A stretch of 64,000 nt of DNA, taken from the NCBI GenBank assembly GCA_029204225.1, contig CM055092.1, positions 88,197,666 to 88,261,665 of the forward strand. The letters run 5' to 3'. Positions 6,288-35,700 of the stretch are shown piece after piece. This DNA is from Diphasiastrum complanatum. Lineage: Eukaryota > Streptophyta > Lycopodiopsida > Lycopodiales > Lycopodiaceae. Both the position numbers and the translations under genes were made by a program. The notes below the pieces were generated by a model, which did not search any database, was not told the DNA's origin, and was given only the letters and a program-made list of their open reading frames with translations. Numbering within the stretch: the first letter of the stretch is position 1; each line of letters opens with the position of its first letter.

Positions 6288-6468
6288 GGGCCTTCCAATA
6301 GCCATGTGGGAAAAAGAGCAAATCACCATTACTTCCAAGGAGGCCCATAAATGGGAGGTATGGACATTGGAACCATTAAGAGATCAAAAGGAGAAACTTA
6401 CAAAAAGCATAACAATTTGCAAAAAGTGCCCTTCTAATGGGCACATGGAAAAGGGGCCAACCATAATT
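6288..6468. repeat. Left part of an older repeat split by a copia insertion
   Basis: This segment matches 16886-17066 nearly throughout. It breaks off at the LTR start at 6469 and resumes after the element at 10218. The reading frame here has one knuckle-like CxxC...H pattern, but I see no convincing protein. Confidence 0.85.
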
Positions 6469-6860
6469 TGTCGCGGAAGAAAGGAAGAGAGACTGTTTCA
6501 TGTTCGTCTTCTCTCTTCTGATTCGCGAACAATTTTCTTAAGATAGCCAAACGTAGAATCACAAGACTAGTTAACGCCAGTCAACTAGTTAGTTAGTCTC
6601 CGTTGTTGCTATTCGTTTCAGCTGGGCGTGAAGCCCGTTGAGCTGTCAGCTGGCAGTGCAAAAGACTTCTCTTCGTGTGTTTTTGTTCTTTTTGTTTCTT
6701 TTCATAGTTTTCGTTGGAGGTGTGTTTACGATTTGCGATTGACTTGCGAATCGTTCGTTCTTTGAGTCAAAGACACGTTGACTGTCGCGAATTGTTCTTG
6801 TTCGACCTTCATGTCTTGTTCGTGCTGCGACAAAGTTGCAGGAGTTCACCATTTCTAACA
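6469..6860 (-). repeat. 3' LTR of second copia element, internally deleted
   Basis: This 392-bp copy matches both ends of the 725-bp LTR at 9493-10217. It lacks about 333 bp in the middle: the breakpoint follows the shared AACAATTTTCTT and resumes at AAGATAGCC. The outer end is TGTCGCGG and the inner end TTCTAACA. Confidence 0.9.
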
Positions 6861-6872
6861 CTCCCTCTTGAA
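6861..6872 (-). promoter_or_regulatory. Polypurine tract of second copia element
   Basis: On the minus strand CAAGAGGGAG directly precedes the 3' LTR start TGTTAGAAA. Composition and position fit a polypurine tract. Confidence 0.8.
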
Positions 6873-6879
6873 CCTTGCA

Positions 6880-7648
6880 GCTTTGATCGTTTAATCCAAT
6901 TGCCTCTCTTTGCTTGGTAAAGAGTGGCATGTCGAGCAGTTTCGTGAGGAGATCTGCAATCATACTTTCTGATTTTATGAACTGGACCTGGAGCTCTCCT
7001 TTCGAGATCAAATCTCAAATGTGATGGTACTTTAGAGGAATGGGCTTCGTCTTTGAATGGAAGACATGATCTTGGGACAGACACATGGCACTCTGAGAGT
7101 CCATCATCATCGTGCTTGGTCCGTCGTGGTATCCCGATTGCCTCCAACATCATTTGCAGCCACACTACCTCATTTGCCACTTTCGAGGCTGCGACATACT
7201 CAACTTCGCAAGAGTATTGAGCTACTAGGGTTTGCTTTTTGCATATCCAGTTGATTGCAGCTCCGCACGCTATTGTACATCCCCCAGTAATGGACTTGCT
7301 GTCATCTTTGCAGCTCACCTAGCTCGCATCACTGTAGTGATGCAACTCGAATCGTTTCTCTTCGTTTCTAGCTCTATAGGTTAATCCAATATTCTGGGTA
7401 CCCTTCAGATACTGTAGGATTCGTTTGGCCATTTGCCAATGTGCTAGACCAGGATTGGAACAAAATCGGCTCAATGTGTAAATAGAGAAGGCCAGATCCG
7501 GTTTGGTACAAATTGTCAAGTACATCAGACTCCCGATTAAGTTCTGGTAGGGTATACCTGTCATCTTATGTTTTTTCTCTTTTGTTATTGGGCAATCATG
7601 TTTTGTGAGCCATTTGTTCGATCTCTTCTGATCTCTAGCCCTAGGCAT
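6880..7648 (-). pseudogene. copia RNase H, frameshifted
   Basis: The frame 7648-7319 carries PYQNLIGSLMYLTICTKPDL and ends in HHYSDAS, the start of the RNase H domain with its first Asp. It resumes at 7318 with SITGGCTIACGAAINWICKK and the Glu-containing CEVEYVAASK. Near 7090 the frame shifts, and the conserved C-terminus (FIKSESMIADLLTKLLDMPLF) is read at 7011-6880. Domain order and motifs are those of copia. Confidence 0.88.
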
Positions 7649-8247
7649 TTTGTTGCTTCTCCAAGATCTGTGATTTCGTAGCTTTCAGAAATCTGACTCT
7701 TCGTGTCTTTGATCAGCATCAAGGAGTTCCCTATCATCAGCGAATCATCCACAAAAATGGTCAGTATCACAAAATCCTTTCCTACTCTTTTGATGTAGAC
7801 ATTGCAGTATGGTTGAGTAGGGTTGAAGTCTAGAGACTTCAGAAGACCATGAAGCTTTTTGTACCAGGCCCGTGATGCCTGTTTTAGACCGTAGATGCAT
7901 CTTTGCAATCGACAGACATATTGTCTGTTGTCGGGGTCTTCATAGCCTTCAGGTTGCTTCATGAAGATTTCCTCCTCTAGATCTCCATGGAGAAAGGCTG
8001 CTTTCACGTCAATCTGGTGAATCTCTAGATTGTACTGTGTGGCGTATGCAAGGAGTAGCCTTATGCTTGTCATCTTCACCATGGGTGAATATGTGTCGAA
8101 ATAGTCGACACCATATCTCTGCATGTAGCCCTTTGTGACAAGCCTTGCTTTGTAGCGGCCAATAGTGCCATCTGATTTTAGCTTTTTCTTGTACACCCAC
8201 TTGCAGTTGACTACTTTTTGTTTTCTAGTAGTGGCTCTAATGTCCAT
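7585..8247 (-). pseudogene. copia reverse transcriptase
   Basis: This frame has the ordered motifs of a copia reverse transcriptase: VNCKWVYKKKLKSDG, YKARLVTKGYMQRYGVDY, IDVKAAFLHGDLEEEIFMKQ, YGLKQASRAWYKK and the catalytic box FVDDSL (YVDD variant). The conserved lead-in (EEIKSMRQNEAW) is in another frame just upstream at about 8290-8250, a frameshift. Most catalytic residues remain, but there is no usable start and the polyprotein is broken. Confidence 0.9.
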
Positions 8248-8260
8248 GCCTCGTTTTGCC

Positions 8261-8765
8261 TCATTGACTTGATCTCCTCTGACATTGCCTGCTTCCAGAA
8301 TTCTCCCTTTGGACTCTAGATAGCTTCTTGGTACATTGTTGGCTCTTCAGCGAAGTTGTAGTATTCGTAACGTGTGTCTTCACTCCACTGAAGATTGTCA
8401 GAGTAGCTAAAATCATTGCTCTGTCATTTTCGAGTTCGCGAAAGTTGATCAGGATCTTCTTGTTGCAGGTTATGTGAGATGTTGCTCCTGAATCAATGAC
8501 TACATCGTAGTCGTGTTTAGAGTAGCTTGTCGAAGCTTCGGCGAGTATTGTGAAAGCTTTTTCACCTCTTTCAGCATCTTCTCTATGACTCTGCAATGTT
8601 TGCCTTTTCAGCTTTGTTTTTTCTTTTTGGGTTGAATATGCAGTCGTATGCAGAATGCCCTTTCTTCTTGCGGTGCATGCAAGGTATTGCTAGATTGAAC
8701 CAGCATTTGTTGGTCGTATGGCCTGGTTTGTGGCAGTGATCGTAGGAAGAAGATTGTTGATTCAA
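8261..8765 (-). pseudogene. copia zinc knuckle and protease remnant
   Basis: The first part encodes a knuckle-like segment (YDHCHKPGHTTNKC) in which the first Cys of the CCHC pattern is Tyr, so zinc binding is doubtful. The following frame (8596-8261) has the retropepsin motif VVIDSGATSHIT with DSG intact. After about 100 residues the frame ends and reverse transcriptase begins. The pre-integrase and integrase domains, normally about 400 residues, are missing. Confidence 0.8.
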
Positions 8766-9427
8766 AGACTTCGTCTTCTCGAATTTTGGCTTGTTTTTGT
8801 TCTTCTTCTTCCCTTTCGTGAAGAGAGCCTTCTCTTGATCACTGCTTGCTCTCCTTCGTCTCTCATCAGTCTCTCATCAGTGACAATAATGACTACTTTG
8901 TCAAATGTCATATCTGGTAGACTCAGTATGAGCATTCTCAACGGTTGATAGGACGTCAGTAGAGATTTCATGAAGTACATCAGCTGTTGTGGTGCTGGGA
9001 CCTGGTGCTCTTGTCCTGATGCAGCGAGTTGAGCAAAGATCGTTTTGATCTTCTCAACGTGCTGATCCAACTGGTTGCCATCCCACCGTATTGATTGTAG
9101 CTGATTGTGAAGGTGCATGACTGAAGCTGCAGTCCTCACTTCATACTTCTGCTTCAATCTTTCCCATGCTGCATGGCTGCTTTCGCAGTCTTCACTCTGC
9201 ATGAGTAGATCTTCATTTATGGACAAAACGATGATCGCCATTGCGCGCTCATCCTTTCTGATCCATTCAGTTCTCCTCAGGTCTCCCTCTGGAGGCTGCA
9301 CCTCTGAGCGCTCAGTCACCGACCAGATGCCTTTGCCCTTCAAGAGCGTTTTGATTTTGAATTTTCAGATTCTGTAATTTGCATCATCAAGACTGATTTC
9401 TACTCTGGTCTGGATTGTCGTAGCCAT
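8762..9427 (-). pseudogene. gag: copia gag with premature stop
   Basis: Translation starts at the ATG at 9427 (MATTIQTRVEISLDDANYRI). A TGA follows where related Gags have Trp before KFKIK. The same frame then continues through a UBN2-type gag domain (MHLHNQLQSIRWDGNQLDQHVEK at mid-length, then LTSYQPLRMLILSLPD). It differs clearly from the Gag of the first element, so two copia lineages are present. The basic tail (RKGRRRTKTSQNSRRR) leads to the zinc knuckle in the next frame. Confidence 0.85.
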
Positions 9428-9477
9428 ATTGTGTTGTCTAGAGGAATCACTGCTGGGATATCAGTAGTGATGACTTG

Positions 9478-9492
9478 CAAGCTCTGATACCA
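9478..9492 (-). promoter_or_regulatory. Primer-binding site (initiator Met-tRNA)
   Basis: On the minus strand this reads TGGTATCAGAGCTTG immediately after the 5' LTR. It is an exact match to the standard plant copia primer site. Confidence 0.92.
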
Positions 9493-10217
9493 TGTCGCGG
9501 AATCGAGGGAGAGAGACTATTTCGTGTTCGTCTTCTCTCTTATGATTCGCGAACAATTTTCTTTCTTTGAATATTCTTTTCGTGCGGAAGCCCTTACAGG
9601 ATTCCAGACACTCGACACAGCACAAGACCAAGAGATACACGAAATGGAACGACTATATTATTAGTTTGGGTTTAGAGCGAGATCGTCAGTGTCTCGCTTG
9701 TTGGCGAATTGACTCTCTGCTCTTTCGCTGTGTTCTGCTCGTTGGCAGACTTTCATGCACAGCTATGGTATTTTGCTTTCTTACTCTATTCGCTACGTCT
9801 CTCTCTATTTCTTATAGATCTTTGTATTCTCTCTCTTTTCACTCTTATCGTTATGATCCAGAGAGGATCATTTATACCTCTACTATGCGGAGTTTTTAAG
9901 ATAGCCAAACGTAGAATCACAAGACTAGTTAACGCCAATCAACTAGTTACTTAGTCTCTGTTGTTGCTATTCGTTTCAGCTGGGCGTGAAGCCCGTTGAG
10001 CTGCCAGCTGCCAGTGCGAAAAACTTCTCTTCGTGTGTTTTCATTCTTTTCGCTTCTTTTCGTGGTTTTCGTTTTGCGTCCCTGGAGGTGTGTTTACGAT
10101 TCGCGAATCGTTCGTGCTTCGAGTCAAAGACACGTTGATTGTCACGAATTGTTCTCGTTCGACCTTCGTGTCTTGTTTGTGCTGTGACAAAGTTGCAAGA
10201 GTTCACCATTTCTGACA
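9493..10217 (-). repeat. 5' LTR of second copia element
   Basis: This full-length 725-bp LTR begins TGTCGCGG and ends TTCTGACA, giving TGTC/GACA inverted ends. It adjoins the primer-binding site. A separate 80-bp fragment of the same LTR end lies at 55788-55868. Confidence 0.9.
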
Positions 10218-11075
10218 AATTTAATGCTACCAAAGGGACAAGGTGTTCATCTAGTTGCCATGGGCCTACGTAAAAATAGACATGAGGGGTCTTTGCATAG
10301 GCACATGGAGAAAAAAATCAAATCACATTCAAATGCCCTATGCAAAGCTGTGAAAGGATGGGGAAAGTAGCAGGCTGGCAATTTGAAAAGGTTTGTGGAC
10401 CTCAAACTCCATAAAAGGAGCTGAATGTAGCTGCATAAGAGGATCCTCTCGTGTCTCTAGCTACCAACTTCCTTCTACTATGCTGAGTGTTTTGCCTGGT
10501 AAAAAATGTGTTCTTTGGTTGGTCAATTAGTTTTCATCCTACAATTTCTTGTGTTGAATCTCTGCTGAAAAATTTGTGCTCTCTAGGTGGCTTTCACCTC
10601 TCTCTCTTGTCATTCTTGTGGGAATACCCAAGGGAGTTGGCTCAATTGGTTAGCTTGACATCCAAAGTTTCTTTGGTCTCAAGTTCGAGCCTTCCCTTGG
10701 AAACCAAGAAGCATTCTTGTGGGAAGGACTGGTGTGCTCAGTTTCTACTTCTACTCAAGATTTGTTTTAGAACTGTGGTGAAATTATCTTTTAATTGCAT
10801 TCAGGGATGTGTTGAACTTTGCTTTAGTTCCTAGAATCTGATCCAAAACGGTGGTGCAAAACTTCTTGTTGTGATTTGGGAGGAGTGTTCCAGAAATATG
10901 AAGTGGATTTTGCTGTCAAGGGGATGCTTCTCATTTAGGCTGATATCCATGTGTTGGTTTTTCTCAATATCACCATTTCCCTTGCCACCTTTTTGTGTGA
11001 GGCTATAGTGTTCAATTCCTTGCTCTTCACCTGCTCCTTTGTCTACTAGAGACAGTTTCCTTTAGATTTATCAAG
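10218..11075. repeat. Right part of the older repeat split by copia
   Basis: This matches about 17067-18310, but with one tRNA-like unit instead of five. It starts directly after the 5' LTR of the second copia element. The small ORFs here (for example 10487-10834) run through the tRNA-like unit and are not conserved as protein between the copies, so I call no gene. Confidence 0.85.
10628..10700 (+). repeat. tRNA-like unit (SINE head or tRNA pseudogene), single copy
   Basis: These 73 nt start CCAAGGGA and end TCCCTTGG, a perfect 8-bp closing stem. An A-box-like TTGGCTCAATTGG and a B-box-like AGTTCGAGCC stand at tRNA spacing, and a CCAAAG/CTTTGG stem occupies the anticodon-arm position. It is not a functional tRNA: the anticodon loop is irregular and the B box lacks its first G. 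It looks like the RNA polymerase III promoter head of a tRNA-derived SINE. Confidence 0.65.
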
Positions 11076-11840
11076 ACACTGTTTTTGATGGAAAGGTCCT
11101 GTTCTGTCACTTTCATATCTTATTCTCAATATCACACTCTCTCCTGTCACTCTCTTGTGAAATTTGGTGTGCTGAGTTCTTATTGTGCTCTCAAGAATAT
11201 AATCTGAAGGCTGAGCAAAAGCACCTACTATGGCCTGGGGGAGGGTGTGGGCTCAAAAATTTGATGATGCTCTTACTATCAGGAGGATGCTGGTCTTATG
11301 TTGCTGAGTCTCTACAAGATAGAAATTATGAGAAACCTTGGAGTTACTTGGGGAGGGGCCAAGAGTCACCATCAACCAACTGAAAGGAAGGAGATACAAG
11401 CAGCATCCTGGCTTCCAATGCACTCAGCCAATGAACCTCATGAGAATGTCTGATATCTGTGAGCTGTAAGGGGTGAGCTATAAGAGAACCAGCTGAAATC
11501 ACCAGGGCATCGCTGCTACGGCTTTATCAGCTCCACGGATCTGCTCAGAGATGTTTGTAATGAACTCTGTCTGTAGAAGATGTGCCACTCTACAATTCCC
11601 CCATGGCTATGACAGAGGGTGGGCGAACCTCCAGCAGCCCATCTAAACATTTTCCACCTCCATATCTGGCTCTGATCATTGCAAAGAGGGGCGCCCACTT
11701 CCTTCCCCACAGTCACCGCTGGCCAGCAGAGGCAACGCTCTCCCAAGACTACCTTGAAGTCGGGTGTGGAGGGATGAATTCCATCACATTCTAAATAATG
11801 TCTTGAGTGTCATTCGAGTGGTTGATATTGCGCTTAGCTG
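11076..11840. other. Gene-free spacer
   Basis: Short ORFs on both strands (for example 11516-11746) have no motifs and overlap each other antisense. Nothing here supports a gene. The segment diverges from the paralogous region after 18320. Confidence 0.5.
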
Positions 11841-11946
11841 GCGAGCAGCCCTACCATATCTCAGTCGCGATCAGAATGCGCTCAGGCCCTTTCGTGCTAC
11901 CAGTCCCAATGCGTTCAATAGTTCATTCTTGGAGGCAAAGTATTAT
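11841..11946. repeat. Short dispersed repeat, copy 1
   Basis: About 105 bp, from GAGCAGCCCTACCATATCTC to TTGGAGGCAAAGTAT, match 18333-18435 with few changes. In both places a GC-rich inverted repeat follows directly. Both copies lie just beyond the tRNA-like repeat. I do not recognise the family. Confidence 0.75.
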
Positions 11947-12070
11947 GGAAGGAGCCGGGCAAAGGCCATTTTGCCGGGTAAGGATTTTTAAGAAAATTTG
12001 GACGAGGTTGAGCCTAATTTTTTTTGGAAAGCCGAACCAAGCATAATGGCCTTTGCCCGGCTCCTTTCAT
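11945..12070. repeat. Foldback element
   Basis: GGAGCCGGGCAAAGGCCATT at 11951-11970 is exactly reverse-complementary to 12045-12064, and the match extends outward with one mismatch. The 74-bp spacer has no ORF. The structure would fold into a stem of at least 20 bp and fits a MITE or foldback element. Confidence 0.8.
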
Positions 12071-12072
12071 TG

Positions 12073-12305
12073 CGTAATGGATACCTGAAATTTTTTCAGA
12101 AGCACATTACAAAGCATAATAGGCAGGTCTGACTTTGACTGACCAACACAAATGTGCCACGTGGCAGCTGTACGGAATTCGTACGGACGGGCACAGACAG
12201 GCAAAAAAAAAAAAAAGCAGAATCTGCCTTTGAAAAAAATGCATGCATTTTCTGCTTTTTAATTTATTTGAAAATAGGCATAATATGCCACAGGTATCCA
12301 TTACG
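12073..12305. repeat. MITE-like element with 15-bp terminal inverted repeats
   Basis: CGTAATGGATACCTG at 12073-12087 is perfectly repeated in inverse at 12291-12305. The 233-bp element has no ORF and contains smaller palindromes: an AAAGCAGAA/TTCTGCTTT hairpin near 12215-12260 and a CACGTG G-box near 12158. I see no clear target duplication, so the superfamily is open. Confidence 0.7.
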
Positions 12306-12539
12306 TGTGTATAATGGTTTTTTTTTGAAAAGGGCTCCATGACTTTAAGAGATGAAGCAACAAACCAATAAGGTGATTGGTAACTGAGTCACCCACCTCT
12401 CTACTGAGCGCGATCTGACTAGTAGTGAGGTATATTTTCCCATCACCTTGAATTTTTGTATTGCTATTGCAAATCTTTTTTCTCATTGAATATAAGTTTT
12501 GAATGTGTATCTAACTAACACACAATAAGCCAACATGCT

Positions 12540-13107
12540 CCAATAAGGTCTCTCTCCCAATAACTTTTTATCTTACAAAATGATGAGCTACCTCGATGTG
12601 TTTGCTCCTTGCATGAAACACAGGATTATTTGCAAGAGCCCGAGCTGAGATGTTATCATTCTTGATAATTGGAAGGTCTTCATCTCCATAATACTTTAGC
12701 TCCAAGAGTAGCCTTTTGATTCATAAAACCTCCTTTGTTGTGGTTGTAAGAGATTTGTACTCAGCTTCACAGGATGATAAGGATATAGATGCTTGCTTCT
12801 TTGATAGCCAAGAAACTAGATTCCTTCCAAAAAAAATTGTGTAAGCACTTGTAAATTTTCTATCCAACCCGTCTCCTGCAAAATCTGAATCTGAAAAAGC
12901 AACCAAAGTTAGATCTTCTCCTTCATAGATCAATACATACTCTAAGATAGAAGATACATATCTCAAGATTCTTTTAGCCAACTTCCAATGATATATCTCT
13001 GGATCCTGCATGTGTTGGATTAGTTTATGCACACTAAAGCTTAGATCAGGCCTTGTCACAGTTAACCGTATAAGTGAGCCAATAAGACTCCTATAAAGAG
13101 TGTAATT
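12540..13107 (-). pseudogene. copia RNase H fragment fused to gypsy integrase
   Basis: The C-terminal two-thirds of an open frame (13287-12721) is copia reverse transcriptase end and RNase H: YRSLIGSLIRLTVTRPDLSF, then FSDSDFAGD and SLSSCEAEYKS with the expected Asp and Glu. The conserved tail after the stop continues towards 12540 in degraded form. Upstream, at about 13107, the same frame is gypsy integrase, so the copia piece lies directly in another retroelement. Confidence 0.85.
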
Positions 13108-13530
13108 TGCGGTAGAACGAGCGTCAGCATTGCGAATAGCTCTTGCTTCGGCCCATTTGGTGCAGTACTCGGTAGCTACTATGATGCAATGAGATTGTGT
13201 GTGTTGAGCAGCAAGACTAATAGGTCCGACATAATCAATTTCCCATTTCTGGAAAGCTTGATCAGTGGTTACGGGGTGTAAAGACATGTAGTCTGTTTTT
13301 TGAAAGCGTTTTGTGCGTTGGCAGACATCACAAGCTTTTTTAGTGTAATTGTGCGTATCCTTGAAGAGTGTTGGCCACCAAAAACCGGCTAAGAGGGTTT
13401 TCTTAGCAGTTGTTTCAGAAGAGAAATGGCCAGCACCAATACCTTCATGAGTGAGGGAAATTACAGAGGGTATTTCTCCTCCAGTAAGACATCGTCGGAT
13501 AATTCCATCTAACCCTTGCTTGTAGAGTTG
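13107..13530 (-). pseudogene. Ty3/gypsy integrase N-terminus
   Basis: The frame carries KWEIDYVGPISLAAQ and IIVATEYCTKWAEA, the conserved first part of the gypsy integrase core with the first catalytic Asp (EIDYVGP). Upstream (13290-13530) the zinc-binding His/Cys region is readable in a broken frame (HEGIGAGHFSSE, CDVCQRTKRF). The core is cut off at about 13107 before the second Asp and the Glu, so no active integrase can be made. Confidence 0.85.
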
Positions 13531-13890
13531 TCATGCAACTAACGTATAAGGTTTAGTTTTGAGGACCAACACACATTGTTCAGGTTTAGAGAAGGAAGGA
13601 TGCAACTGCCCTGAAGTTAAATATTCGATAATTTCCTTAGCCCATACAAGTGTAGAGTCAACTTGGAAAAGGATTGCATCTGGTAAATCATCGTTGACAC
13701 CTTGATCAGGGGTAGGAAGGTTAGGGATTCGGGATAGATGGTCTGCTAAAAAATGCTGAACTCCCTTACGAACCACGATCCTAAACTCAAATTCTCTTAA
13801 TAATAGGATCCATCTAGTAATACGGCCGGTGGTGCAGGTCTTGTTGATGAGATACAACAGTGCTTGATGATCAGTGAAGAACACAAAGAT
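13531..13890 (-). pseudogene. Ty3/gypsy RNase H C-terminus
   Basis: The motif FFTDHQALLYLINKTCTTGR followed by RWILLLREFEFRI and HFLADHLSRI is the conserved end of the gypsy RNase H domain. The N-terminal half and all of reverse transcriptase are missing: the frame is joined at about 13890 to the protease region upstream. The downstream part leads to the integrase zinc domain after a stop. Confidence 0.88.
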
Positions 13891-14350
13891 TTAACATAAT
13901 GACCTTTTTCGTGGCTGGACTGGTATGGCTCAAATACTGAGTTGGTGGTTGAGGATCCCTCGTCATGGATGCATGCAAGTTTGAGTTTACCCGTTGAGTC
14001 AATGGTGACAGAACTGTCACGATTTCCAAAAGTGACTCGGCCTTTGCTCCAGTCATGAACGACTTGTGCATTGGTGAGCCACGGACGACCAAGTAGTAAT
14101 TCATAAGAATATGCATTATTGGGAATATCAAGTACTATAAGATCAACAGAAAACTTGAGACCTCCTAGTTTGATCAGCACGTGCGGAAGGAAACCGGTAG
14201 GTCGGACCACACTTTGATCAGCCATCCAAAGCTGACAAGTAGGTTGGCTAGCTTGTCTCTCAGATTCCATTCCATCATGAGAGATGTGGAAATGATATTA
14301 ACCCCGGAACCTCCATCGAGTACTGCTAAAACTTCACGGGATTGATGATG
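13890..14350 (-). pseudogene. Ty3/gypsy aspartic protease
   Basis: The active-site motif LDGGSGVNII lies near 14310 in one frame, and after a frameshift near 14275 the rest follows in frame 14270 downward: MADQSVVRPTGFLPHVLIKL and YELLLGRPWLTNAQVVHDW. This is the retropepsin-like domain of plant gypsy Gag-Pol, with DGG in place of DTG/DSG. A closely related copy is at 37889-38656 on the plus strand. Beyond HEKGHYVK the sequence jumps to RNase H, so reverse transcriptase is deleted in this copy. Confidence 0.87.
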
Positions 14351-14950
14351 GGTAGCTGGGATTTTGATGTTGTCTTGTTTGCTAAGTGAATTGGTTAGAC
14401 GTAAGGATTGGTTAGACGTAAGGGCATTTCAGACACCTCGTCAATAGTGGTGGTGGTATTGGATTGGATCTGTTGTTTCCACTGGCCAGCATGCTTCCAG
14501 AGTACATGGAAGAGAAGAGTGACATTGGCTTGTAGTACATCTCCCCAAACTTTGGTACCTTCAAGGGTTTTGCTTTCAAAGAGCTTGTGAGGTACTTTAT
14601 GGGAAGAGGAAGATCGTTGGCGGCATTGCAGATTTGCTGGCGATACTCATGATGCAGCCGAATTTCTTCAGATGGGTGAGGGTAAACTATCGGGGTTGAA
14701 TCATCACTTGGAGGAACAGCCTGCGGTTGAGTTTTGCTGGGTGCAAGTGTAGGGGCTTGGTGTTGGGTTTGTGTCCGAGTCAAGACCCAAGCAGGATGTG
14801 TTTCGATTGGTAAGGTTTCTAATTGCACTGAACAGACAGGAGTGGCTGGCTTAGATCGGGATGGGCAGTCCTTCATGTGATGTTCAATACCACAGTTTTC
14901 ACAAGCTGGAGGAAAGTGGAGTTTATCTGGGCAGCGAATACTAGGATGTT
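14351..14950 (-). pseudogene. Ty3/gypsy zinc knuckle and linker
   Basis: On the minus strand a knuckle of form CxxCxxxHxxxxC (CENCGIEHHMKDC) spans about 14915-14870. A Pro/Gln/Thr-rich linker (14876-14412) with no known domain follows, ending in conserved LPLPIKYLTSSLKAKPLKVP. The equivalent linker is found at 37400-37800 in the related plus-strand element. Confidence 0.75.
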
Positions 14951-15145
14951 TACCTGCACAGATAAAGCATTCTCATATTGCGGGTAGTTGGTGTGCGGCA
15001 AAGATAGCTTGGTTTGGATTGTAAGCTTGGGCATTGGGATCCACCGGTTGAGCATTAGAATCATAGGTATAATAAACAACCATTTTAGTAGAGTATTGCG
15101 GTTAAGTATTGTCTTCCACATAGTAGGTGGCCGGATTGATGGTAT

Positions 15146-16123
15146 TCAGATCAAGATAATGGACAGCGTTTTGTGGGACAGGTTGGTTAACAACAAACTG
15201 TTGACGTGGGGATGGGTATTGATTTGGTGCAGGTGGTCGTGGTTGGTAAACCCCTGGTCGTGGCACAGGTTGTTGTGGCGGGTAAGGGTGGTAAGCTCAA
15301 TAAATGGTGGGTCTAGTGGCTGTTGGGAAATGATTTCGCAGTTGAGGACATTCATTATCAGTGTGATGCTATGAGCAGATTGGACACCAGACATTTTCCT
15401 TGCTAGAAAGGATTTCTCGAAATCGGCAGTGAGTTTATCCATATGAGATTGTTGAGCTTTTTGCCAGGTTTCCATTTGATGTAGAAGTTCAGAAGACTGA
15501 GCAATATTATCAGACTTCAGGTGATTAGGACGGTCCGGATTCTTAGATTTTTTTTCACGATGGTCAAATTCATCGTCGGAACCTTCGTCTTCTTCACAGA
15601 TAGCATCGATCATCACATCTTTAAGTTGATCATAAATGTCAACTGGTTTGAGTTCACGACGGATGTTTTTAGACAATCCAACTAAAAATAGTTTTATGGC
15701 CATTCGTTCATTGATATTTTCATCAACACATTCTACTTTGAGACGTTTAAAACGCTCAATGTAGTTTTGAACAGACTCTTCGTGACGCATCTTGATATGA
15801 GTAATTTGAATGAATGGGCTCTGAGTCAGTTTGGATGGTTTGAAACGCTTGATGAGAGCGTCCTTGAGGGTGGTCCAAGAAGCAAGATCAGGAGCTTCGA
15901 GATTCAAGTACCACTCCTTGGCGGTGCCATAGAGTACCATGAGAAATAGGCGAAGCTTTTCAATTTCAAAGGTATCTCCATAAAAACGGCATGCATTATC
16001 AAAGTCTTGGAGAAATCGGACTGGGTCAGATTCGCCATCGTACTTTGGTGCATCGATATGTGGAATTCTTCATTCTATTCGTGGAGGAGTCAGATTAGAA
16101 GATTCAGCATAGTCATGAGACAT
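15146..16123 (-). pseudogene. gag: Ty3/gypsy gag
   Basis: The probable start is the ATG at 16123 (MSHDYAESSNLTPPRIE), followed after 17 codons by a TGA. The same frame then has IDAPKYDGESDPVRFLQDF and the Retrotrans_gag core (YGTAKEWYLNLE, WTTLKDALIKRFKPSK, YIERFKRLKVEC). An acidic hinge (CEEDEGSDDEFDH) and a coiled-coil-prone segment follow before the frame degrades at about 15400. This is a capsid-type Gag. The stop makes this copy non-functional. Confidence 0.88.
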
Positions 16124-16885
16124 GATGCAGAATACAAATGAGCAGGGCAGGACTGTACTTGGCAAAAAGGGCATTTTGCTTGCAGAATGGATAGTGTAGG
16201 ACAAAACCTGGTCTTTCTGGTGGTGATAGAATTCGCGGACAGGCTGGCAAATCGTGGAGAGGTAGATAAAGCTAACTGTAATACTCGCGAATTTTGAAAA
16301 AGAGTTCTGAATGTCAGAATAGCGATTTTTTTAGATTTTCTGGAAAAAAATTGCACTTTCAGAGTTCGCGAGTAGGACAACAAAATCGTGCTCCTTGAGA
16401 ATGAATTCTTAGGCTGGATGGCGAATTCTAACAGAGAGTTTTGACTGGCAAATAGGAAATATGAAAAAAATGTGATTCTTTGATAGTAAACGGGCAAAAT
16501 ATGTGAGAGAGAATTTGCGGAGCTGCTGGAGGACTGATCTTGATGAGATCTAGCCTCAGTGAAGCCGGTGAATTCTAGGACAAAGATTTGGGAGATAAAT
16601 AAGGGATTTTGACAGTATATCAGGCTGTTTTCTCAAAATCTGACCGTGGTCAGAATTCACGGAGGTGATAAAATGAAAGATCAGGGTCTGTTAGGGCTGC
16701 AGACTGGCTGGCGAATTCTAATATACCTTTTTGGTTGTGAAAAAGGTCACTTGGGTCACTTCTTTTGAAGAAAATGCCCAAGTTGACTCTTTTGTTGCTT
16801 CCCTCCGGTTTGAAAAGTTGCTCCGCAGCTCATGTAGGACCTGGAGAGACGACGTGTGTTGGAATATCAATCCACACTCTAGAGA
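16124..16885. other. Region upstream of gypsy gag
   Basis: No supported gene. An open frame at 16497-16090 (minus) has no motifs and I reject it. This is presumably leader or LTR of the gypsy element, but I found no matching LTR in the window, so the boundaries are unknown. Short repeats of GCGAATTC/AATTCGCG type recur. Confidence 0.45.
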
Positions 16886-18320
16886 GAGCCTTCTAATAGC
16901 CATGTGGGAAAAAGAGCAAATCACCATCAATACCAAGGAGGCCCATAAATGGGAGGTATGGACATTGGAACCATTAAGAGATCAAAAGGAGCAATTTACA
17001 AAAAACATAACAATTTGCAAAAAGTGCCCTTCTAATTGGCACATGGAAAAGGGGCCAACCATAATTTTAAGCTACCAAAGGGAAAAAGGGTTCATCTAGG
17101 TGCCATGGGCCTAAGTAAAAATAGACATGAGAGGTCTTTGCATAGGCACATGGAGAAAAAAATCAAATCACATTCAAATGCCCTATGCAAAGTTGTGAAA
17201 GGATGGGAAAAGTAGCAGACTGGCAATTTGAAAAGGTTGGTGGGCCTCAACCTCCATAAAAGGAGCTGAACATAGCTGCATAAGAGGATCTCCTCCTGTC
17301 TCTAGCTACCAACTTCCTTCTACTATGCTGAGTGTTCTGCTTGGTAAAAAATATGTTCTCTTGGTCAGTTCTTTTCATCCTACAATTTCTTGTGCTGAAT
17401 CTTTGTTGGAAAATTTGTGTTCTCCAGATGGCTTTCACCTCTCTCTCTTGTCATTCTTGTGAGAAACCCAAGGGAGTTGGCACAATTGGTTAACGCTTGA
17501 CATCCAAAGTTTCTTTGGTCTCAAGTTCGAGCCTTCCATTGGAAACCAAGAAGCATTATTTTAGGCTACCCAACGGGGTTGTCTTAGTTGGTTAGCTTGA
17601 CATCCAAAGTTTCTTTGGTCTCAGGTTCGAGCCTCCCCTTGGAAACCAAGAAGCATTCTTGTGAGAAACCCAACGGGGTTGGCTCAGTTGGTTGGCTTGG
17701 CATCCAAAGTTTCTTTGGTCCCAGGTTCGAGCCTCCCCTTGGAAACCAAGAAGCATTCTTGTGAGAAACCCAACGGGGTTGGCTCAACTGGTTAGCTTGG
17801 CATCCAAAGTTTCTTTGGTCCCAGGTTCGAGCCTCCCCTTGGAAACCAAGAATTCTTGTGAGAAACCCAACGGGGTTGGCTCAGTTGGTTGGCTTGGCAT
17901 CCAAAGTTTCTTTGGTCCCAGGTTCGAGCCTCCCCTTGGAAACCAAGAAGCATTCTTGTGAGAAGGATTGGTGTGCTGGGTTTCTACTTCTACTCAAGAT
18001 TTGTTTTAGAACTATGGTGAAATTATCTTTTAATTGCATTCAGAGATGTGTTGAACTTTGCTTTACTTCCTAGAATTTGATCCAAAACACTGGTGCAAAA
18101 ATTCCTGTTGTGATTTGGGAGGAGTGTTCCAAAAATATGATTTGGATTTTGTTGTCAAGGGGATGCTTCTCATTCAGGCTAATATCCATGTGTTTCCGGC
18201 TGGGTTTTTCTCAACATCACCATTTCCCTTGCCAACCTTCTTGTGTGAGGCTATAGTGTTCAATTCTTTGTTACCAAAGCTATTCTGATGGGAAGAAGTT
18301 GCTCTTCACTTGCTCCTTTG
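16886..18320. repeat. Uninterrupted paralogue of the repeat split at 6469-10217
   Basis: The order and sequence match 6288-6468 followed by 10218-11075, without the copia insertion. The empty site reads CCATAATTTTAAGC at about 17061-17075. The main internal difference is the tRNA-like unit, which is present five times here. No long ORF is shared by both copies. Confidence 0.88.
17468..17939 (+). repeat. Tandem array of five tRNA-like units
   Basis: Units start at 17468, 17570, 17670, 17770 and 17867. Each of the last four is exactly 73 nt, and the first is 75 nt with a small insertion. Units are joined by 24-28-nt spacers (AAACCAAGAAGCATTCTTG type). Each has an A-box-like TTGGCTCAGTTGG, a B-box-like GGTTCGAGCC, a CCAAAG/CTTTGG stem at the anticodon position and pairing ends. 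Units 2-5 have a canonical GGTTCGAGCC, while unit 1 and the single copy at 10628 have AGTTCGAGCC. The higher similarity of units 3-5 suggests recent expansion. The irregular anticodon loop argues against working tRNA genes. Confidence 0.8.
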
Positions 18321-18332
18321 TCTACTAGAGAC

Positions 18333-18435
18333 CGAGCAGCCCTACCATATCTCAGTTGCAATCAGAATGCGCTAAGGCCCTATCGTGCTACCAGTCCCAA
18401 TGTGTCCAATAGTTCATTCTTGGAGGCAAAGTATA
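18333..18435. repeat. Short dispersed repeat, copy 2
   Basis: Matches 11841-11946 over about 105 bp. It directly precedes the GC-rich hairpin at 18436. Confidence 0.75.
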
Positions 18436-18465
18436 GGGGAAGGCCCCCGCCCGAGGGCCTTCCCC
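18436..18465. repeat. Perfect GC-rich hairpin
   Basis: GGGGAAGGCCC (18436-18446) and GGGCCTTCCCC (18455-18465) are exact reverse complements around an 8-nt loop. In an AT-rich background this 11-bp stem stands out. It occupies the same position relative to the dispersed repeat as the foldback at 11945, so it may be a shrunken member of that family. Confidence 0.85.
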
Positions 18466-18649
18466 GGCGTAAAGCAATATCAAAAAAATTTTAATCCTCT
18501 CAAACTTTCTGGATTTTACTCGTCTTTGTAGATTTTACCCCGCCATTTTCTCTTCGTCTATGTTTACCCCGCCATTTCCTCTTCGTCTATGGAGGTGCTC
18601 ATTTTTTACACTTGCTATCTTGTTTTTGCTTGTTTGCTTGTGTTCTGAA

Positions 18650-18870
18650 GCCGCAGTGATGGAGCTCCATGGCTCTGTAGGAGCACTATTGTTCAGAACA
18701 TGTTTAGGCTTTAGATATGGATCTGATGGAGGCGCTATGGTTCAAAACAGTTTTATGCTTTAGTTGTGGATGTCATGGAGGCGCTATGGGTCAGAAACAT
18801 GCTTTAGCTATGGTTCTGGTGGAGGCATTATGGTTCAAAAACGTTTTTTGGCTATGGTTTTTGTTCTAAA
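18650..18870. repeat. Degenerate minisatellite, about 47-bp period
   Basis: Variants of GGAGGCGCTATGGTTCAAAAC recur at about 18728, 18776 and 18822, with a more diverged unit near 18660. It lies 350-550 bp upstream of the recombinase gene start. No ORF crosses it convincingly. Confidence 0.7.
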
Positions 18871-19221
18871 GGTGCAGGAGTGGATGATGTGTTTGTGAAG
18901 GAACTATGGAGTGCTATTGTTCTGATGGAGTGTTCTGGTTCTGTAGGAGCGTTGGGGTTTTGTATGGGCTTGAAGGAGTGATGGTGCATGGCTTTATGAG
19001 GAGAGCACGGTTTGGAGCACTATTAATGATGCACATTTTACTGTATGTTTGATGAGGGTAGTTTGCTGAGCATTTATTGTTGTTTATGTAGGTGTGTTTT
19101 TTATACATTTCTGAGGTTGTTTATGGTTTTGTTTGCATCTTTGCCAATTATTTTGTTTTGAACAAGGTCTCTTGTGATTTTGCTTTGAATAATATTTCCA
19201 ACATTTCATTTCTAGCTGAGT

Positions 19222-21001
19222 ATGGCAGACTTCATGGATGTTGATTGTGAGGGTGGAGTGATTTGTTGTCCTTATTTTGATCTTCATTTGTCTATGATAA
19301 TAATGTAGTGGAAGATATTGCTTCCAAGTTGCAGGTTGTTTGCAATGCCTCTATGTCCACTGAAGCAGATGTTGTGGATTCCTCTACTCTATTTTGTTCT
19401 AGTCTTGTTTCTAAAAATGTGTGTTTTAATGATTGTGGTACTGATAATGTGAATCAAGATTGTGCTGTTGAAAGATGTAGAATCTCTCGCTTCAGAGATA
19501 TAGATGTAGTTGAGCTTAATAATGTGAATAGTGGTGGTCGTCGTAGTAGTAAGCATGCTGAGATGTGGGCCCGTAAAGCTTTTGATGAATGGAGGCAGTT
19601 TCGAGGCTATAGTACTGCTGAAAGTATTGAAGATCTTTCTGAACATGGAGATATTAAAGATTTTGTGGAGATATTAGCTTTGTTTTTATTGCAGATTACT
19701 AAGAAAGATGGACAGCTGTACCCTCCTGGAAGGTCCAGCTAAATTGTTTTTCATGTGGTGTCATTACATTTCATGTTTCATTACTATTATGATAGCATGG
19801 ATTATGATTTTTTGAGATGTTTTTTATTATTTGCAGTATTCAAGCATTATTCAGAGGCGTTGGTAGATTGATACGTGCTCGTCAAGCTCAACTTGTACTT
19901 GAAACCGGGGTTAATGTTATCCCTTTTAACATTCTTACAGATCCTCGATATAATCGTGCCAAGCTTGCTGCTAATGAAGCTGTCATTCGTTCATCTATTT
20001 CTGGTTTGGGCAAAAGTGTGAAGAAAAGTGTTGTGTTGACAATTAACAAGGAAAGCAAAATGCTTGCACAAGAAATATGTCAACCGACTAGTCCCTCTGG
20101 TGTGAATCTTAGATTTGGCTACTTCTGTACTCGGATTTTTTTCATTCGAGGTGCTTCTGAGCTTTGCAGGCTTGATGATACTGATTTCAGTATAATATCT
20201 GATTCAAGTGGTCGAACCATTCTAAGGTAATTGTGATATACGTGTTGTGTTTTTGGTACTATTTTGAGATTATGTTTTGTGTCTTGACAATTTATTTGGA
20301 GGTTTTTTTAATTTTTTGTCATTGTTCTAGAACAGGTACAATCATGGTATCTCAAAGAATTGGCATTTTGATGTTTCTTGTTGTGGTCCTGAATATCACC
20401 GTCCTGTAGTTGATTGTGGTATCAAGGATGTTTTGGATACGTATAATGTTCTTATCACTCATCGTCCTCAATGGTGTGTTGAGGAATGTGGACCGCATCC
20501 TTTATTTTTGACACCTCGCTTGAAATGGAAACCTTCAGATGCTATATGGTTTTTGAAATGTCCAGTCGTGAGGAATATGTTGAGGATTCTTACGATGCGG
20601 CTTACTAGTGACCTTCCCGTGAAAAATAAGATAATCAGTAACAAAACTGGTAGGGGTGTTGGAATTACTAGGATGGAAGAAGCATTTGTACCTGTGGAGT
20701 ATGGAATGCTATTGTCGGGTCATCGTGATGCAAAGTCATACGGGAAGTATGATCTTTTGATTGTAATGTTTTTTTTATGCTTTGTTTCATCTGTGTTTTA
20801 ATTTTACTGATGTTATTTTGGTTCATATTTTAATGTCCATGTTGTCTTTTATGTAGGTACAATTGTAGCGAAAAAATGATACGTGATCGAGCTCTGCAAC
20901 GTATAATCTTAGGAGAGACATGGAATGGGAAGGCATTGCGGTTTGAGGATGCATTACAGCAGGAGCGAGAGAAGTATTCTGAAGCTAAAGAGGCTGACTA
21001 A
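19222..21001 (+). CDS. Crypton-type (DUF3504-like) tyrosine recombinase, spliced
   Basis: Model: exons 19222-19252, 19309-19732, 19837-20226, 20336-20746 and 20857-21001, giving 466 residues. All introns are GT-AG, the four junction phases agree, and introns 2-4 are 104, 109 and 110 nt. Intron 1 is only 56 nt and tentative; without it, translation could start at the ATG at 19353. The N-terminal part (KHAEMWARKAFDEWRQFRGY, then KKDGQLYPPG) resembles the core-binding region of the DUF3504/QRICH1/ZMYM family derived from Crypton recombinases. The catalytic part shows Arg I in FIRGASELCRL (20147-20149), Lys in GISKNWHF (20355), box II NKTGR with Lys (20643) where His is usual and Arg (20652), His in LSGHRDAKS (20721), and Tyr after GK (20858). 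Lys at the box-II His position is tolerated in this superfamily. Expected role: DNA strand exchange for a Crypton element, or a domesticated DNA-binding protein. I identified the family from motifs, not a search. Confidence 0.75.
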
Positions 21002-21465
21002 TTTCTAGCAGCTCTGATGATATTGATTGCAAGAAAGAAGTAAAAGAAGTTAATTATGTTTCTGGTGTAGGAACTCAGAATGTTTTTGTTGAAAATTCTG
21101 TTGGTGTTGAATCTGCTGGAAACTGTAATGCAATTAAAGCTGTTGTAGCAGATAACGAGGCAATGAAAGCTGCCACAGTGGAAAACGAGAATGATTGGTC
21201 GTATTTCAAAGAAGATGTTGATTTTTGGAATAGCATGGATGGGCAAATTGCTATGGAAGAGGAAATGAGAAAATATCAAGATAAATTAGATTCTATATTT
21301 TTTGTTGTTGGTAGATCGAGTTCTATCCAAATTGGTCATCAATTTCACAATTTGAACAATTGCAACATTACACTTAGTCTTGGTGATTCTGGTTCTGCTT
21401 CTGATCTGTTGGCGAGCTTGAAAGCTTTTATTTCTAAAAAAAAGGTAGATATTTTCTTAAAGTAA
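21002..21465 (+). pseudogene. Out-of-frame C-terminal tail of the recombinase gene
   Basis: After the TAA at 20999-21001 the +2 frame is open from about 21000 to the TAA ending at 21465 (about 154 codons). It begins ISSSSDDIDCKKEVKEV and includes ENENDWSYFKEDVDFWNSMD and QIGHQFHNLNNCNITLSLG. Acidic, low-bias sequence of this kind looks like true protein tail. A one-base deletion near the stop would explain the break. A 35-nt GT-AG intron (20974-21008) would restore the frame but is very short for a plant. A CTGACTAATTTCTAG acceptor-like string sits at 20994-21008. Which explanation holds decides whether the gene is intact. Confidence 0.6.
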
Positions 21466-21477
21466 ATAGCGTAAGGA

Positions 21478-21554
21478 CATTGATAGTGGCATATTTTCTT
21501 GAAGAAATTAGCATTGACAATGGCATAAATTGATGTCAATTTTTTGTGGTTGGA
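21478..21554. other. Spacer with imperfect direct repeat
   Basis: ACATTGATAGTGGCATA (21478-21494) and GCATTGACAATGGCATA (21510-21526) are imperfect 17-nt direct repeats, and a short inverted ATTGA/TCAAT pair follows. The segment separates the recombinase tail from gypsy sequence. If the recombinase belongs to a Crypton, its right end should lie here. Confidence 0.4.
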
Positions 21555-22260
21555 TCAACCTGCTCCGATATGGAGGACGCTACTTGTTTCTTCATAACCC
21601 GTACAATATATGGGCTCAGGCGCTACTGGCTCCTCGTCCATTTTGGCCCATTCAGCCAAAAGGCTTTTAGCTTGTGGCGCAATCTGCAATAATTCCCTGA
21701 GAGGTAAACTAACATGGCTCGCTAGTAAGATTGTGAGCCTTTCAATGCGTGGTTCCTCGGGCTCCACCATGTGAAAAGCTGGTTCATGACGATGCAACCG
21801 ATCGTTCTGATCAGTGCGCAACGGTGAGCCCGTTTGCGGTTCCCGTTTGCCGTCAGCTTGAGGTTCCATAGGATTGTCCTTTTCTTGCTCTTTCTCCTCC
21901 GCTTGTGCTCTCTATACCCAGTGTCGTATTTTCTGGTACTATCTTCTTTCTTCCATCACATTCGGATATGGCGCTGAAGTTGAGGGCTGGTCATCAATGA
22001 CTAATGGTGCTAGTGAGGGAGCCACTTCCTTCCTCTTCTGTGCTCGCGTAATGGCTAACATAGGGGCATGGAAATGTTGCCCTTTCGGTGGCATCCCCGT
22101 TGGAACTGTTGGTTGTTGTATTGCAATCAAGTTTAGTGGTGCACTAGTTCTAGGTCTTAATGAACAATTCTTGAAGCAGTGTCCATAACCGCATTCTCGG
22201 CAAAAGGATGTATATTGTCCTTTGTAAGGACATTCCGCAATTCTGTGTCCTTCACTTTTT
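21555..22260 (-). pseudogene. Ty3/gypsy gag-protease fragment
   Basis: On the minus strand a Cys/His motif (FCRECGYGHCFKNC) near 22200-22150 is followed by PTSAPL-type linker, PMLAITRAQKRKEVAPSL, and then IAPQAKSLLAEWAKMDEEPV to SSVLHIGAG. The last part matches the plus-strand gypsy element at 34580-34920, where it continues into the protease. Here it is cut at 21555 next to the recombinase tail. No enzyme domain remains. Confidence 0.8.
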
Positions 22261-27076: not shown

Positions 27077-28228
27077 TCATGCCGCCAGCACCTGACAGCT
27101 AACTACCTCTTCATTATCATAAGGCCCAACTTGCATATCTTGGTATGAAAGACATCCTTGCTGGCACTCTCCATCCAGCTCTACAACCAAGATTTCAAGT
27201 CCTCTTCTGACCACATATAATTTGCTTCCCACGCCAGCCATACGTGGATTTGCCATCAAAATGGATTCCCAACGAAATTCTCTTAACGAAAGACCTCTCA
27301 AGTAGATCCAACCAACTCCAGAAACATCAGCTACTCTAACTCTACCTGCTGCCCAGTCGATTGTGTGAAGCTTTCCACCCATAACTGCACTCAAGCCATA
27401 CCTCAAAAGAGCTTTCATTTTGCTTGTTTTATATTGCCATTGACCAGTAACTGGATCATATAGCTTGACAAATGCCCTGGCATCATCCTCCTCTCGATAA
27501 GAACAATAGAACCTGTCATTTGCAAGTGTAATACACAGCCAATCAGGTTGCCAGCCAACATCAAACCATGTGGGAGATGGAAGTTTGGGGTGTCCTTGAC
27601 TTTCAACACTTGTCCACTCATCTTTCTCGAAGTCATAGCACTCTGAAACATGTAGTGGATGGTTAAAACAATCAAAGCCTCCTAAAACAAACAACTTCCC
27701 AACCAAAACACTGATTAGAGGACTGTGTCTGGTGTTGATCATGCTCCTGCCTTTCATCCATCGATTTGATATCGGAGAGTAAATATAAAGGTTTCGTAAA
27801 GTTGGACCTGAAATACCGGCCTTCCCTCCCACTACGTAGAGGTTGCCTTTTGAAACAGCTGAGACTCTTCCAAATACCTCTGCGGAAAGGCCTCTCCTTT
27901 TCGGGATAGGAGGAAGAGGTCGCCATTTTTTTTCTTGCGAATCAAATGCATACCATGAAACTCTCTTTGAATTAGGATTCCAAGTTTCAACATAGAGCCA
28001 TTCTTCTGTCACACCAAAAACCCTTCTAATATCCTGCAGTAGAGGATGCTCCAAAATACTTCTCCATCTCTTTGAGACAAGTCTCAGAGAAAGTAGACAT
28101 GTTCTGGGGAGTCGTGCAAGACATAACATGGCAACATCATCAGAGAGACCAGGAATGATTGGAGACGGAAAATCTAAGGAGAGGGAAGCTGACGGAATTC
28201 CAGGAGAAAGGGATAATGCGCCAGACAT
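27077..28228 (-). CDS. F-box/kelch-repeat protein
   Basis: The 383-residue product starts at the ATG at 28228. The frame is open 17 codons further up but without an ATG. An F-box spans about residues 25-68 (IPGLSDDVAMLCLARLPRTC, then LRLVSKRWRSIL), after which RVFGVTEEWLYVETW leads into kelch units with paired glycines: NLYVVGGKAG, KLFVLGGFDC and GKLHTIDWA. The C-terminus EEVVSCQVLAA closely follows that of plant F-box/kelch proteins of the At1g22040/At1g55270 type. By family, the F-box binds SKP1 in an SCF ubiquitin ligase and the kelch propeller recruits a substrate, which is unknown here. The coding part is in one exon without stops, unlike the surrounding transposon debris. This is the clearest host gene in the window. 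Confidence 0.92.
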   Translation of the reverse strand: MSGALSLSPGIPSASLSLDFPSPIIPGLSDDVAMLCLARLPRTCLLSLRLVSKRWRSILEHPLLQDIRRVFGVTEEWLYVETWNPNSKRVSWYAFDSQEKKWRPLPPIPKRRGLSAEVFGRVSAVSKGNLYVVGGKAGISGPTLRNLYIYSPISNRWMKGRSMINTRHSPLISVLVGKLFVLGGFDCFNHPLHVSECYDFEKDEWTSVESQGHPKLPSPTWFDVGWQPDWLCITLANDRFYCSYREEDDARAFVKLYDPVTGQWQYKTSKMKALLRYGLSAVMGGKLHTIDWAAGRVRVADVSGVGWIYLRGLSLREFRWESILMANPRMAGVGSKLYVVRRGLEILVVELDGECQQGCLSYQDMQVGPYDNEEVVSCQVLAA

Positions 28229-33246: not shown

Positions 33247-33728
33247 TGTTGGATTTATCTCCTCTACTCTCCTAAATTCTATTTTAATCTGCCTCCATTC
33301 ATGTTGCATTTTTACTCGTGTTCTCGCACAGTCTGCATAAATACAAGTAATTTTCGACAAGCAAAAAAGATGAAAAACATGACACTGTGTTCTTACACGT
33401 GATTTGTGATAGACCAAAAAGACGATACTGCCTTACAAAATGTCGAAGGTGCCCTAGAAAAAGTGAAGGCACCCTGTAAATCAAATCCTAAGGCATTTGT
33501 CAGAGTGTGACATTTTTCGCATCCTCACCAACGTTCATTTCAGCAAAGACTGATGTTGCGGCCTTCTCACACTCATCCCATGCAACTGTGCTAACAGATT
33601 TGACAATGACAATAGCCACCCACGATCTCCTACAGACAGCACATCCACTTTGTACTTTCTTCATCAGCACACCTATAAAATTGTGTATAAATACATATAT
33701 ATATACATATGTATATATATATATATAT

Positions 33729-34579: not shown

Positions 34580-35700
34580 GAAGCTGCACAAGCACGAGAA
34601 GCTTCTACGGAACCTCAACCTACGGAAGAACCAGCACCACCAGTGGCCTCTCCAGTGAGAATGAATCAAAACGATTGCTTGCATCATCACGAACCACAGT
34701 TCCATATGAAAGTGCCGGAGGTCCCACAGACATGTGTGCTCACTAGTTTATTGTCTAGATGGGCTAACTTATCTCTCGATGAGTTACTTTGATCTCACCT
34801 CAAGCCAAGAGCATCCTAGCTGAATGGGCCAAAGTGGAACCGGAAATAGTAGCGGAAGAGCCCTTATACTATGCAGGCTATGAAGGAACGAGCAACGTCC
34901 TCCATATTGGGGCAGCGTGGAAAAGTGAAGAACACAACATCACCCTGCCAATTCACCACCAGAGGTTCGAGGACGAAGCAACAGTGGTAGATGGAGGATC
35001 AAGTCTAAATTTGATCTCCACTACCTTGTATCAAAAATGGGGTTTGCAAGGATTGAAACCAACAAAATTTGCCATCAAATTAGGAGATCAATCATGTGTA
35101 AAACCAAAGGGTGTACTTGACGACATCCCAATGAAAATGGCAGGAATGCAGTTTGTAATCACTTTCGTGGTGATGGACATACCAGAGTCCCCTTCTGCCT
35201 ACCGTGTTTTACTAGAAAGACCTTGGTTGAGGATCGCGCAAGTGGTTCACAACTAGAAAACCAGAAAACTCACCTTCGAAAATCGAGAGCAGGCTGTAAA
35301 GGTTGATCCAACCACATGGGCAGTGAAACCAATTGCACCAAAAGCTGATGACGGATCGTCCACCATTGATCACACAATTGATCGCCCAAGGCAAACCAAG
35401 GGAGGTCACTATGACTTTGAGACGGATATTGTGAGATGGACGGACGCATTGACGACCATTGACTGTATGGATGGGCATGCTTGTCAACCGGATTCAGATC
35501 CAAAACCCAGCAGATCTTCACCCAAGTGTTATACCTTGAACATGCCAATCACTTTTGGGGTGAATATGATCAATGTGGCATGGGTATCAATGGAAGCTAT
35601 TGAGAACCCTGTGGACGATGATTTAGTCCCTTGGCAACATGCTTTTACCTACAACAAGGAAACTGAGCTGACTGATGAGTAGGTACTACAACATATGGAC
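34580..35700 (+). pseudogene. Ty3/gypsy protease region, plus strand
   Basis: Broken frames at 34620-34790 (SPVRMNQNDCLHHHEPQFHM) lead into an open frame at 34789 (SPQAKSILAEWAKVEPEIV). The retropepsin motif VVDGGSSLNLIS is near residue 65, followed by YRVLLERPWLRIAQVVHN and a stop at 35256. The frame resumes to 35682 with a linker (DIVRWTDALTTIDCMDGHA). This belongs to the same family as the minus-strand fragment at 21555-22260 and to a different subfamily from 37889-38656. Several stops inactivate it. Confidence 0.85.

Follow-up and report, generated by a model that had tools for sequence, protein, structure and literature searches.

A spliced, DUF3504-related tyrosine recombinase in a probable transposon family of a lycopod genome

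A 64,000-nucleotide stretch of the Diphasiastrum complanatum genome (hereafter, the window) carries a series of open reading frames with the residues of a tyrosine recombinase, which raises the question of what kind of gene this is and whether it belongs to the plant or to a mobile element. The first-pass annotation had proposed a five-exon gene of the DUF3504/Crypton family and had left both a plant Crypton and a domesticated recombinase open. Here we describe the reading frame, the relatives of the predicted protein, the copies of the surrounding sequence and the readings that these permit.

The recombinase gene and its relatives

Four long ORFs (156, 155, 153 and 140 aa) lie on a single strand within 18435-21556, and the fourth-longest ORF reached 100 aa in none of 1000 dinucleotide shuffles of this interval. 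In the spliced window sequence, three GT-AG introns join four coding stretches in phase into one open recombinase protein. The Riccia sorocarpa protein P0001 matches the raw window in three stretches (tblastn, E=3e-89), and the alignments of P0001 and of a second relative, P0002, with the spliced window protein are continuous across all three intron junctions. The agreeing phases and introns claimed earlier thus hold for the following parts of the gene:

19222..19732, + strand: exon 1, with its ATG at 19222; the frame is disrupted between there and about 19310
19733..19836, + strand: intron 1, 104 nt; GT..AG in 10 of 13 ungapped copies (18 aligned, five gapped)
19837..20226, + strand: exon 2; carries catalytic Arg 20147
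20227..20335, + strand: intron 2, 109 nt; GT..AG in 13 of 18 aligned copies
20336..20746, + strand: exon 3; carries Lys 20355, Lys 20643, Arg 20652 and His 20721
20747..20856, + strand: intron 3, 110 nt; GT..AG in 14 of 18 aligned copies
20857..21465, + strand: exon 4; nucleophile Tyr 20858 followed by the C-terminal tail; a 7-nt deletion near 20998, private to this copy, precedes the early stop at 21001

They do not hold for a fifth, first exon. The small first intron that had been proposed (62 nt) is best explained as a frameshift: the frame from the ATG at 19222 enters the recombinase without an intron in copy C2, and it does so with one stop in copy C8. The ATG is present in all 11 copies with letters there (18 copies aligned), and the frame after it is shifted in the other eight copies compared. 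GT and AG also stand at the aligned ends of the proposed intron in C4 and C8, which counts against the frameshift reading. Because a frameshift is nonetheless the most likely explanation, we describe the gene as having four exons.

The end proposed at 21001 proved to be private to the window rather than the family's end: 7 nt are missing there near 20998 that are present in 16 of 16 other copies covering the place (two pairs of duplicated loci among them; C16b and C5 fall outside the coverage and C19b outside that run), and the protein otherwise continues into the ORF ending at 21465. A further intron before the C-terminal tail was considered and ruled out, as the deletion accounts for the stop. 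The Riccia proteins, which are of the same family, have a C-terminal tail of similar length, though not a recognisably similar one. The first-pass notion of a working gene in the window is therefore abandoned: since it has two frame lesions and has lost its right end, we regard the window copy as a relic, with a broken gene and without a right end.

The catalytic codons reported earlier were re-derived at Arg 20147, Lys 20355, Lys 20643, Arg 20652 and His 20721, and the last exon has Tyr 20858 as its first complete codon. All six positions are common to the window protein, P0001 and P0002. Among the copies, all 12 retain both Lys and the His, 10 of 12 the box-II Arg, and all 11 that could be mapped the Tyr; on the other side of the account, three of the 12 have lost an Arg, namely the first catalytic one in C14a and that of box II in C8 and C3.

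A protein search with E values up to 10 returned five relatives, three of them from Riccia sorocarpa (R1sor_003432, R1sor_010268 and R1sor_008025, on three different contigs) with 48, 45 and 41% identity and a best E of 1e-116. The remaining two lie on an ENA contig and a JGI contig, and a profile search returned the same five. The protein search depends on shared 5-residue words and would therefore miss more distant Cryptons. P0003 is missing some of exon 3, and both P0004 and P0005 are incomplete. The genes for the latter two probably both carry intron 1 and were predicted without splicing: P0005 ends at the end of exon 1 and P0004 has extra residues at that junction, as expected in such a case.

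Against the Pfam DUF3504 profile (cut-off 29.7 bits), the window protein scored 23.4 bits, C8 and C21 26.3 each, C3 28.8 and C2 30.2, so that one copy of five passes. The relatives P0001 (19.9) and P0002 (24.7) are both below the cut-off, and the Pfam scan gave no DUF3504 match in P0003-P0005. What stands of the earlier family assignment is thus a DUF3504-related tyrosine recombinase, with C2 above the cut-off, and not membership at that threshold for the window protein or its relatives. P0001 also matches the phage integrase family phrog_1 (E=1.1e-7), a match found in neither the window protein nor P0002.

A profile of five family members matched ten recombinases with E=1.8e-4, with the Arg, box II, Trp and Tyr of Cre in register and the Lys two columns off, four of the ten having been chosen for their weak match to P0001. 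Against the six bacterial and phage recombinases taken without that choice (Cre, lambda Int, XerC, XerD, FimB and FimE), the same profile gave E 0.16, which is not significant, and against six unrelated proteins as a control E 0.37-0.65. When ten sister copies were added, the match to the ten recombinases was weaker (E 0.0027), and that to the six had E 0.053. One copy has a weak match to a QRICH1 domain (12.7 bits, E 0.13). PDB sequences and NCBIfam each gave one chance match and otherwise none, Rfam and tRNA scans gave no match, a phage tblastn gave 27 records, with none significant (20 of them listed), and scans of viral and prokaryotic contigs returned nothing informative. Judged by its sequence, the window protein is a predicted tyrosine recombinase related to DUF3504 and encoded in a plant.

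Ends, copies and selection

Copy number and flanks, named in the first-pass annotation as what would separate an element from a host gene, point to a mobile element: the 2244-base query gives 51 match rows spread over 21 contigs (a lower bound, with some rows being pieces of one copy), and the copies have common ends in unrelated flanks. The assembly searched comprises 1.74 Gb in 5176 contigs, and 19 of the match places were fetched. Homology with copies in unrelated flanks starts at 18429-18435 (C4, C8, C21/C2260 and C16b), and homology to the window ends at 21546-21550 (C4, C8, C7a, C4085 and C16b), beyond which those copies continue together. The window copy is laid out as follows:

18435..21550, + strand: transposon copy with a complete left and a truncated right end; other copies extend about 390 bp more
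18436..18465, no strand assigned: terminal palindrome; arms 11 nt, spacer 8 nt; in other copies it occupies the corresponding position at the left end
18469..18491, + strand: left inverted arm GTAAAGCA..., paired in other copies with the right end ...TGCTTTAC

The element is about 3.5 kb long (3501 bp in C4, 3993 bp in C8). Each end bears an inverted arm of about 23 bp, and the left one also has a GC-rich palindrome. At the left, the sequence is AGGGGAAGGCCC, 8 nt and GGGCCTTCCCC, followed by the arm GTAAAGCA...; the right end is this arm inverted, ...TGCTTTAC. Within the window the terminal palindrome is the sole GC-rich one with arms of at least 11; AT-rich ones lie at 33695, 33709, 34235 and 47997. 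Fuller left ends (C16a, L045 and L047) have two palindromes flanking another inverted repeat. Flipping of the palindrome core by recombination was considered and dropped: because some copies carry two palindromes with opposite cores, loss of one of them explains both core orientations. Direct repeats of six bases between the window's own edges were likewise rejected as a signal, two being found and about two expected by a simple calculation. An array of ~41-bp tandem repeats lies between the left end and the gene in L021-L024 (C21, C2260 and C14) and in L020 (C16).

Ten further ORFs of at least 100 aa lie outside the recombinase frames in C4, C8 and C21, and the six of these that were scanned gave no credible Pfam match for a second gene, the one hit being a chance match (E 0.038). 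Shorter relatives are also present. Four such candidates, each with facing arms 0.8-1.1 kb apart, were fetched; their longest ORFs are 79-97 aa and their end sequences are common with the large copies, and they represent three distinct short copies, as L045 and L048 are one duplicated locus. The right-arm pattern, with up to two mismatches, occurs at 91 places, left arms included, and the reversed control at none. The exact right arm was found at eight loci, with a recombinase encoded within 1.5 kb at three and not at the other five (L039 and L040 look like one duplicated locus). At this apparently duplicated locus, the right end is joined via GTAT to a left-type palindrome, head-to-tail. Elsewhere, at least ten right-arm matches are clustered within 0.27 Mb (G000 C21:34464878-34731189), perhaps a local array of the recombinase-element family.

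Ten outer left ends fit one pattern (four inner palindromes, which read from the opposite strand, are excluded from this count); these ten are preceded by GTAT in eight cases (one of them the tandem), by ATAT in C16b and by CTCA in C4. Left ends outside the pattern are preceded by GTAT in L045, GAAT in L046 and CCGG in C7b, so that GTAT precedes 9 of 13 left ends when C14a, C14b, C19a and C3 (inner palindrome only) and C2260 (a duplicate of C21) are left out. Among 25 right-arm matches, ten are left arms read backwards and 15 are right ends. The right end is followed by G in 12 of these 15, by GT in seven and by GTAT in three, and by A in C4, C2 and C19b. GTAT stands on both sides in L039 and L045 only; elsewhere there is mostly no clear direct repeat of 4-6 bp.

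Twelve copies, giving 66 pairs, fall into four groups at dS <0.2 (window/C4/C8/C7a, C16a/C21/C14a, C2/C3/C7c and C22/C19a). In the 53 pairs between groups, dN/dS is 0.29-0.54, and in the 13 pairs within groups it is 0.60-1.05; the pairs have branches in common and are not independent. The between-group values show that the recombinase stayed functional during the spread of the family, with selection on the protein lost within the groups. As estimated from these alignments, the pattern is what a transposon usually shows, with source elements that work and copies in decay.

Kind of element and competing readings

What the window holds is probably one member of a multi-copy family of DNA transposons, in which the only gene recognised encodes, in four exons, a tyrosine recombinase related to DUF3504/Crypton enzymes. 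We favour a mobile element over a host gene because of the copy number, the shared ends and the dN/dS pattern. Of the two possibilities that the earlier annotation had left open, the mobile element has thus gained support, and placement in a described Crypton group has not, given the inverted arms. On the best reading, the family is a new group of land-plant DNA transposons with a recombinase; we call it Crypton-like and give it no named group because its ends differ from those of described Cryptons.

In the available excerpts of PMC3212892, Cryptons (CryptonF, S, A, I and V) resemble the present family in having a DUF3504-type recombinase as the only recognised protein, introns, a length of a few kb, few gene-bearing copies and non-autonomous relatives. 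According to the same excerpts, described Cryptons have no terminal inverted repeats and animal Cryptons no short terminal direct repeats. The present family differs in its land-plant host, its inverted arms and terminal palindrome, a Lys replacing the first box-II His, and the lack, in most cases, of a clear 4-6 bp direct repeat. The 94 Cryptons treated in the excerpted text come from animals, fungi and stramenopiles, and the sole plant in its tree legend is Chlamydomonas (PMC3212892). A 2020 review states, in the portion available, that Cryptons were undescribed in Arabidopsis (PMC7385966). Titles and the starts of abstracts yielded no report of a land-plant Crypton among the matches listed, Repbase itself lying outside this scope, and the word Crypton does not occur in the excerpts of PMC9033089 or of the Riccia genome paper (PMC11735767), nor in PMC13182070. 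As far as their excerpts go, PMC11630846 mentions Cryptons in general terms, and PMC8869645 and PMC4455052 cover CryptonV and the Repbase list.

In such an element, the recombinase would bind the inverted arms, the palindrome or both, and its Tyr would cut the element ends. After release, the element may form a circle whose ends meet in a short GTAT-like sequence, and this circle would insert at a short GTAT- or G-type target. A bolder version, which we hold tentatively and with some doubt, is that the family may represent a deep and separate lineage of transposons with tyrosine recombinases, living in early-diverging land plants. The composite ends of its members, a double palindrome at the terminus together with inverted arms on either side, would form the recombination site, insertion into GTAT-like targets and onto each other's ends would produce head-to-tail arrays, and the enzyme would move gene-less relatives in trans. 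For plant genomes, a family with ends of its own, introns and relatives that lack the gene would mean an additional kind of transposon; annotation pipelines would gain a profile for copies now unnamed, and site-specific action of such recombinases in plants would become testable.

The recombinase gene could instead be a passenger of another kind of transposon, for example a rolling-circle element of Helentron type, moved by an unseen helper. Helitron and Helentron ends have a hairpin at one end and inverted subterminal repeats, and the present family is alike in its palindrome at one end only and its inverted arms; the lack of an evident target duplication and the five of eight exact right-end loci without a recombinase nearby fit a passenger as well. 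Against this, no Rep/helicase was recognised in C4, C8 and C21 (elements found through the recombinase, so that a helper may lie elsewhere), related recombinases occur in a liverwort, and the between-group dN/dS points to an enzyme kept working during the spread. We consider a passenger unlikely.

Domestication by the plant host, on the model of animal ZMYM/QRICH1/KCTD1, would fit the DUF3504 relationship and the spliced gene, and ZMYM2/3/4, QRICH1, KCTD1 and KIAA1958 do carry the homologous recombinase domain. However, the excerpts of PMC3212892 describe the Tyr and the second (box-II) Arg as lost in those animal genes, and here both are kept in most copies. The many dispersed copies with common ends, the near-neutral change within groups and the broken frame in the window also speak against domestication, which is very improbable for this locus; a single domesticated copy may exist elsewhere in the genome. 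Least probable of all is part of a DIRS/Ngaro-type retrotransposon: such elements carry tyrosine recombinases and terminal repeats (PMC4157794, as excerpted) and the window has reverse-transcriptase genes, but these lie outside the element and none was recognised between the ends of C4, C8 and C21.

Flanks and neighbouring genes

The Crypton-like copy in the window lies between two retroelement-like stretches:

16888..18434, - strand: left flank, LTR-like repeat of a Ty3-type element; matches 6290-6469 and 10217-11943; gag ORF at 15149-16069
21558..21911, - strand: right flank, broken retroelement-like ORF; resembles 34783-35253; no Pfam match

The Ty3-type element occupies 6290-18434 on the minus strand, with LTR-like repeats at 16888-18434 and 6290-6469/10217-11943, the left copy being interrupted by a Copia-type element (reverse transcriptase ORF at 7588-8346).

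An intact-looking F-box/kelch gene lies at 27080-28228 on the minus strand. The first-pass annotation had set the locus against seed-plant genomes, a frame that this gene does not support: among 13 matches (8000 candidates scored), the named relatives are only those of a moss and two liverworts (Physcomitrium 51%, Marchantia 47% and Calypogeia 45%), with unnamed relatives at up to 65%. In a tree of seven F-box proteins, the window gene stands apart from the two liverworts and no other branching is resolved. By sequence similarity, the F-box/kelch neighbours suggest a land-plant host.

Inside the LTR-like repeat, at 17452-17964, are five tandem copies of a 100-bp unit with a tRNA-like look, in which ARAGORN found no tRNA. 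GC-rich inverted repeats (GGAAGGAGCCGGGCAAAGGCC and its complement) at 11944-12300 adjoin the other LTR copy, in the place corresponding to that of the recombinase element beside 16888-18434, and are possibly another small element.
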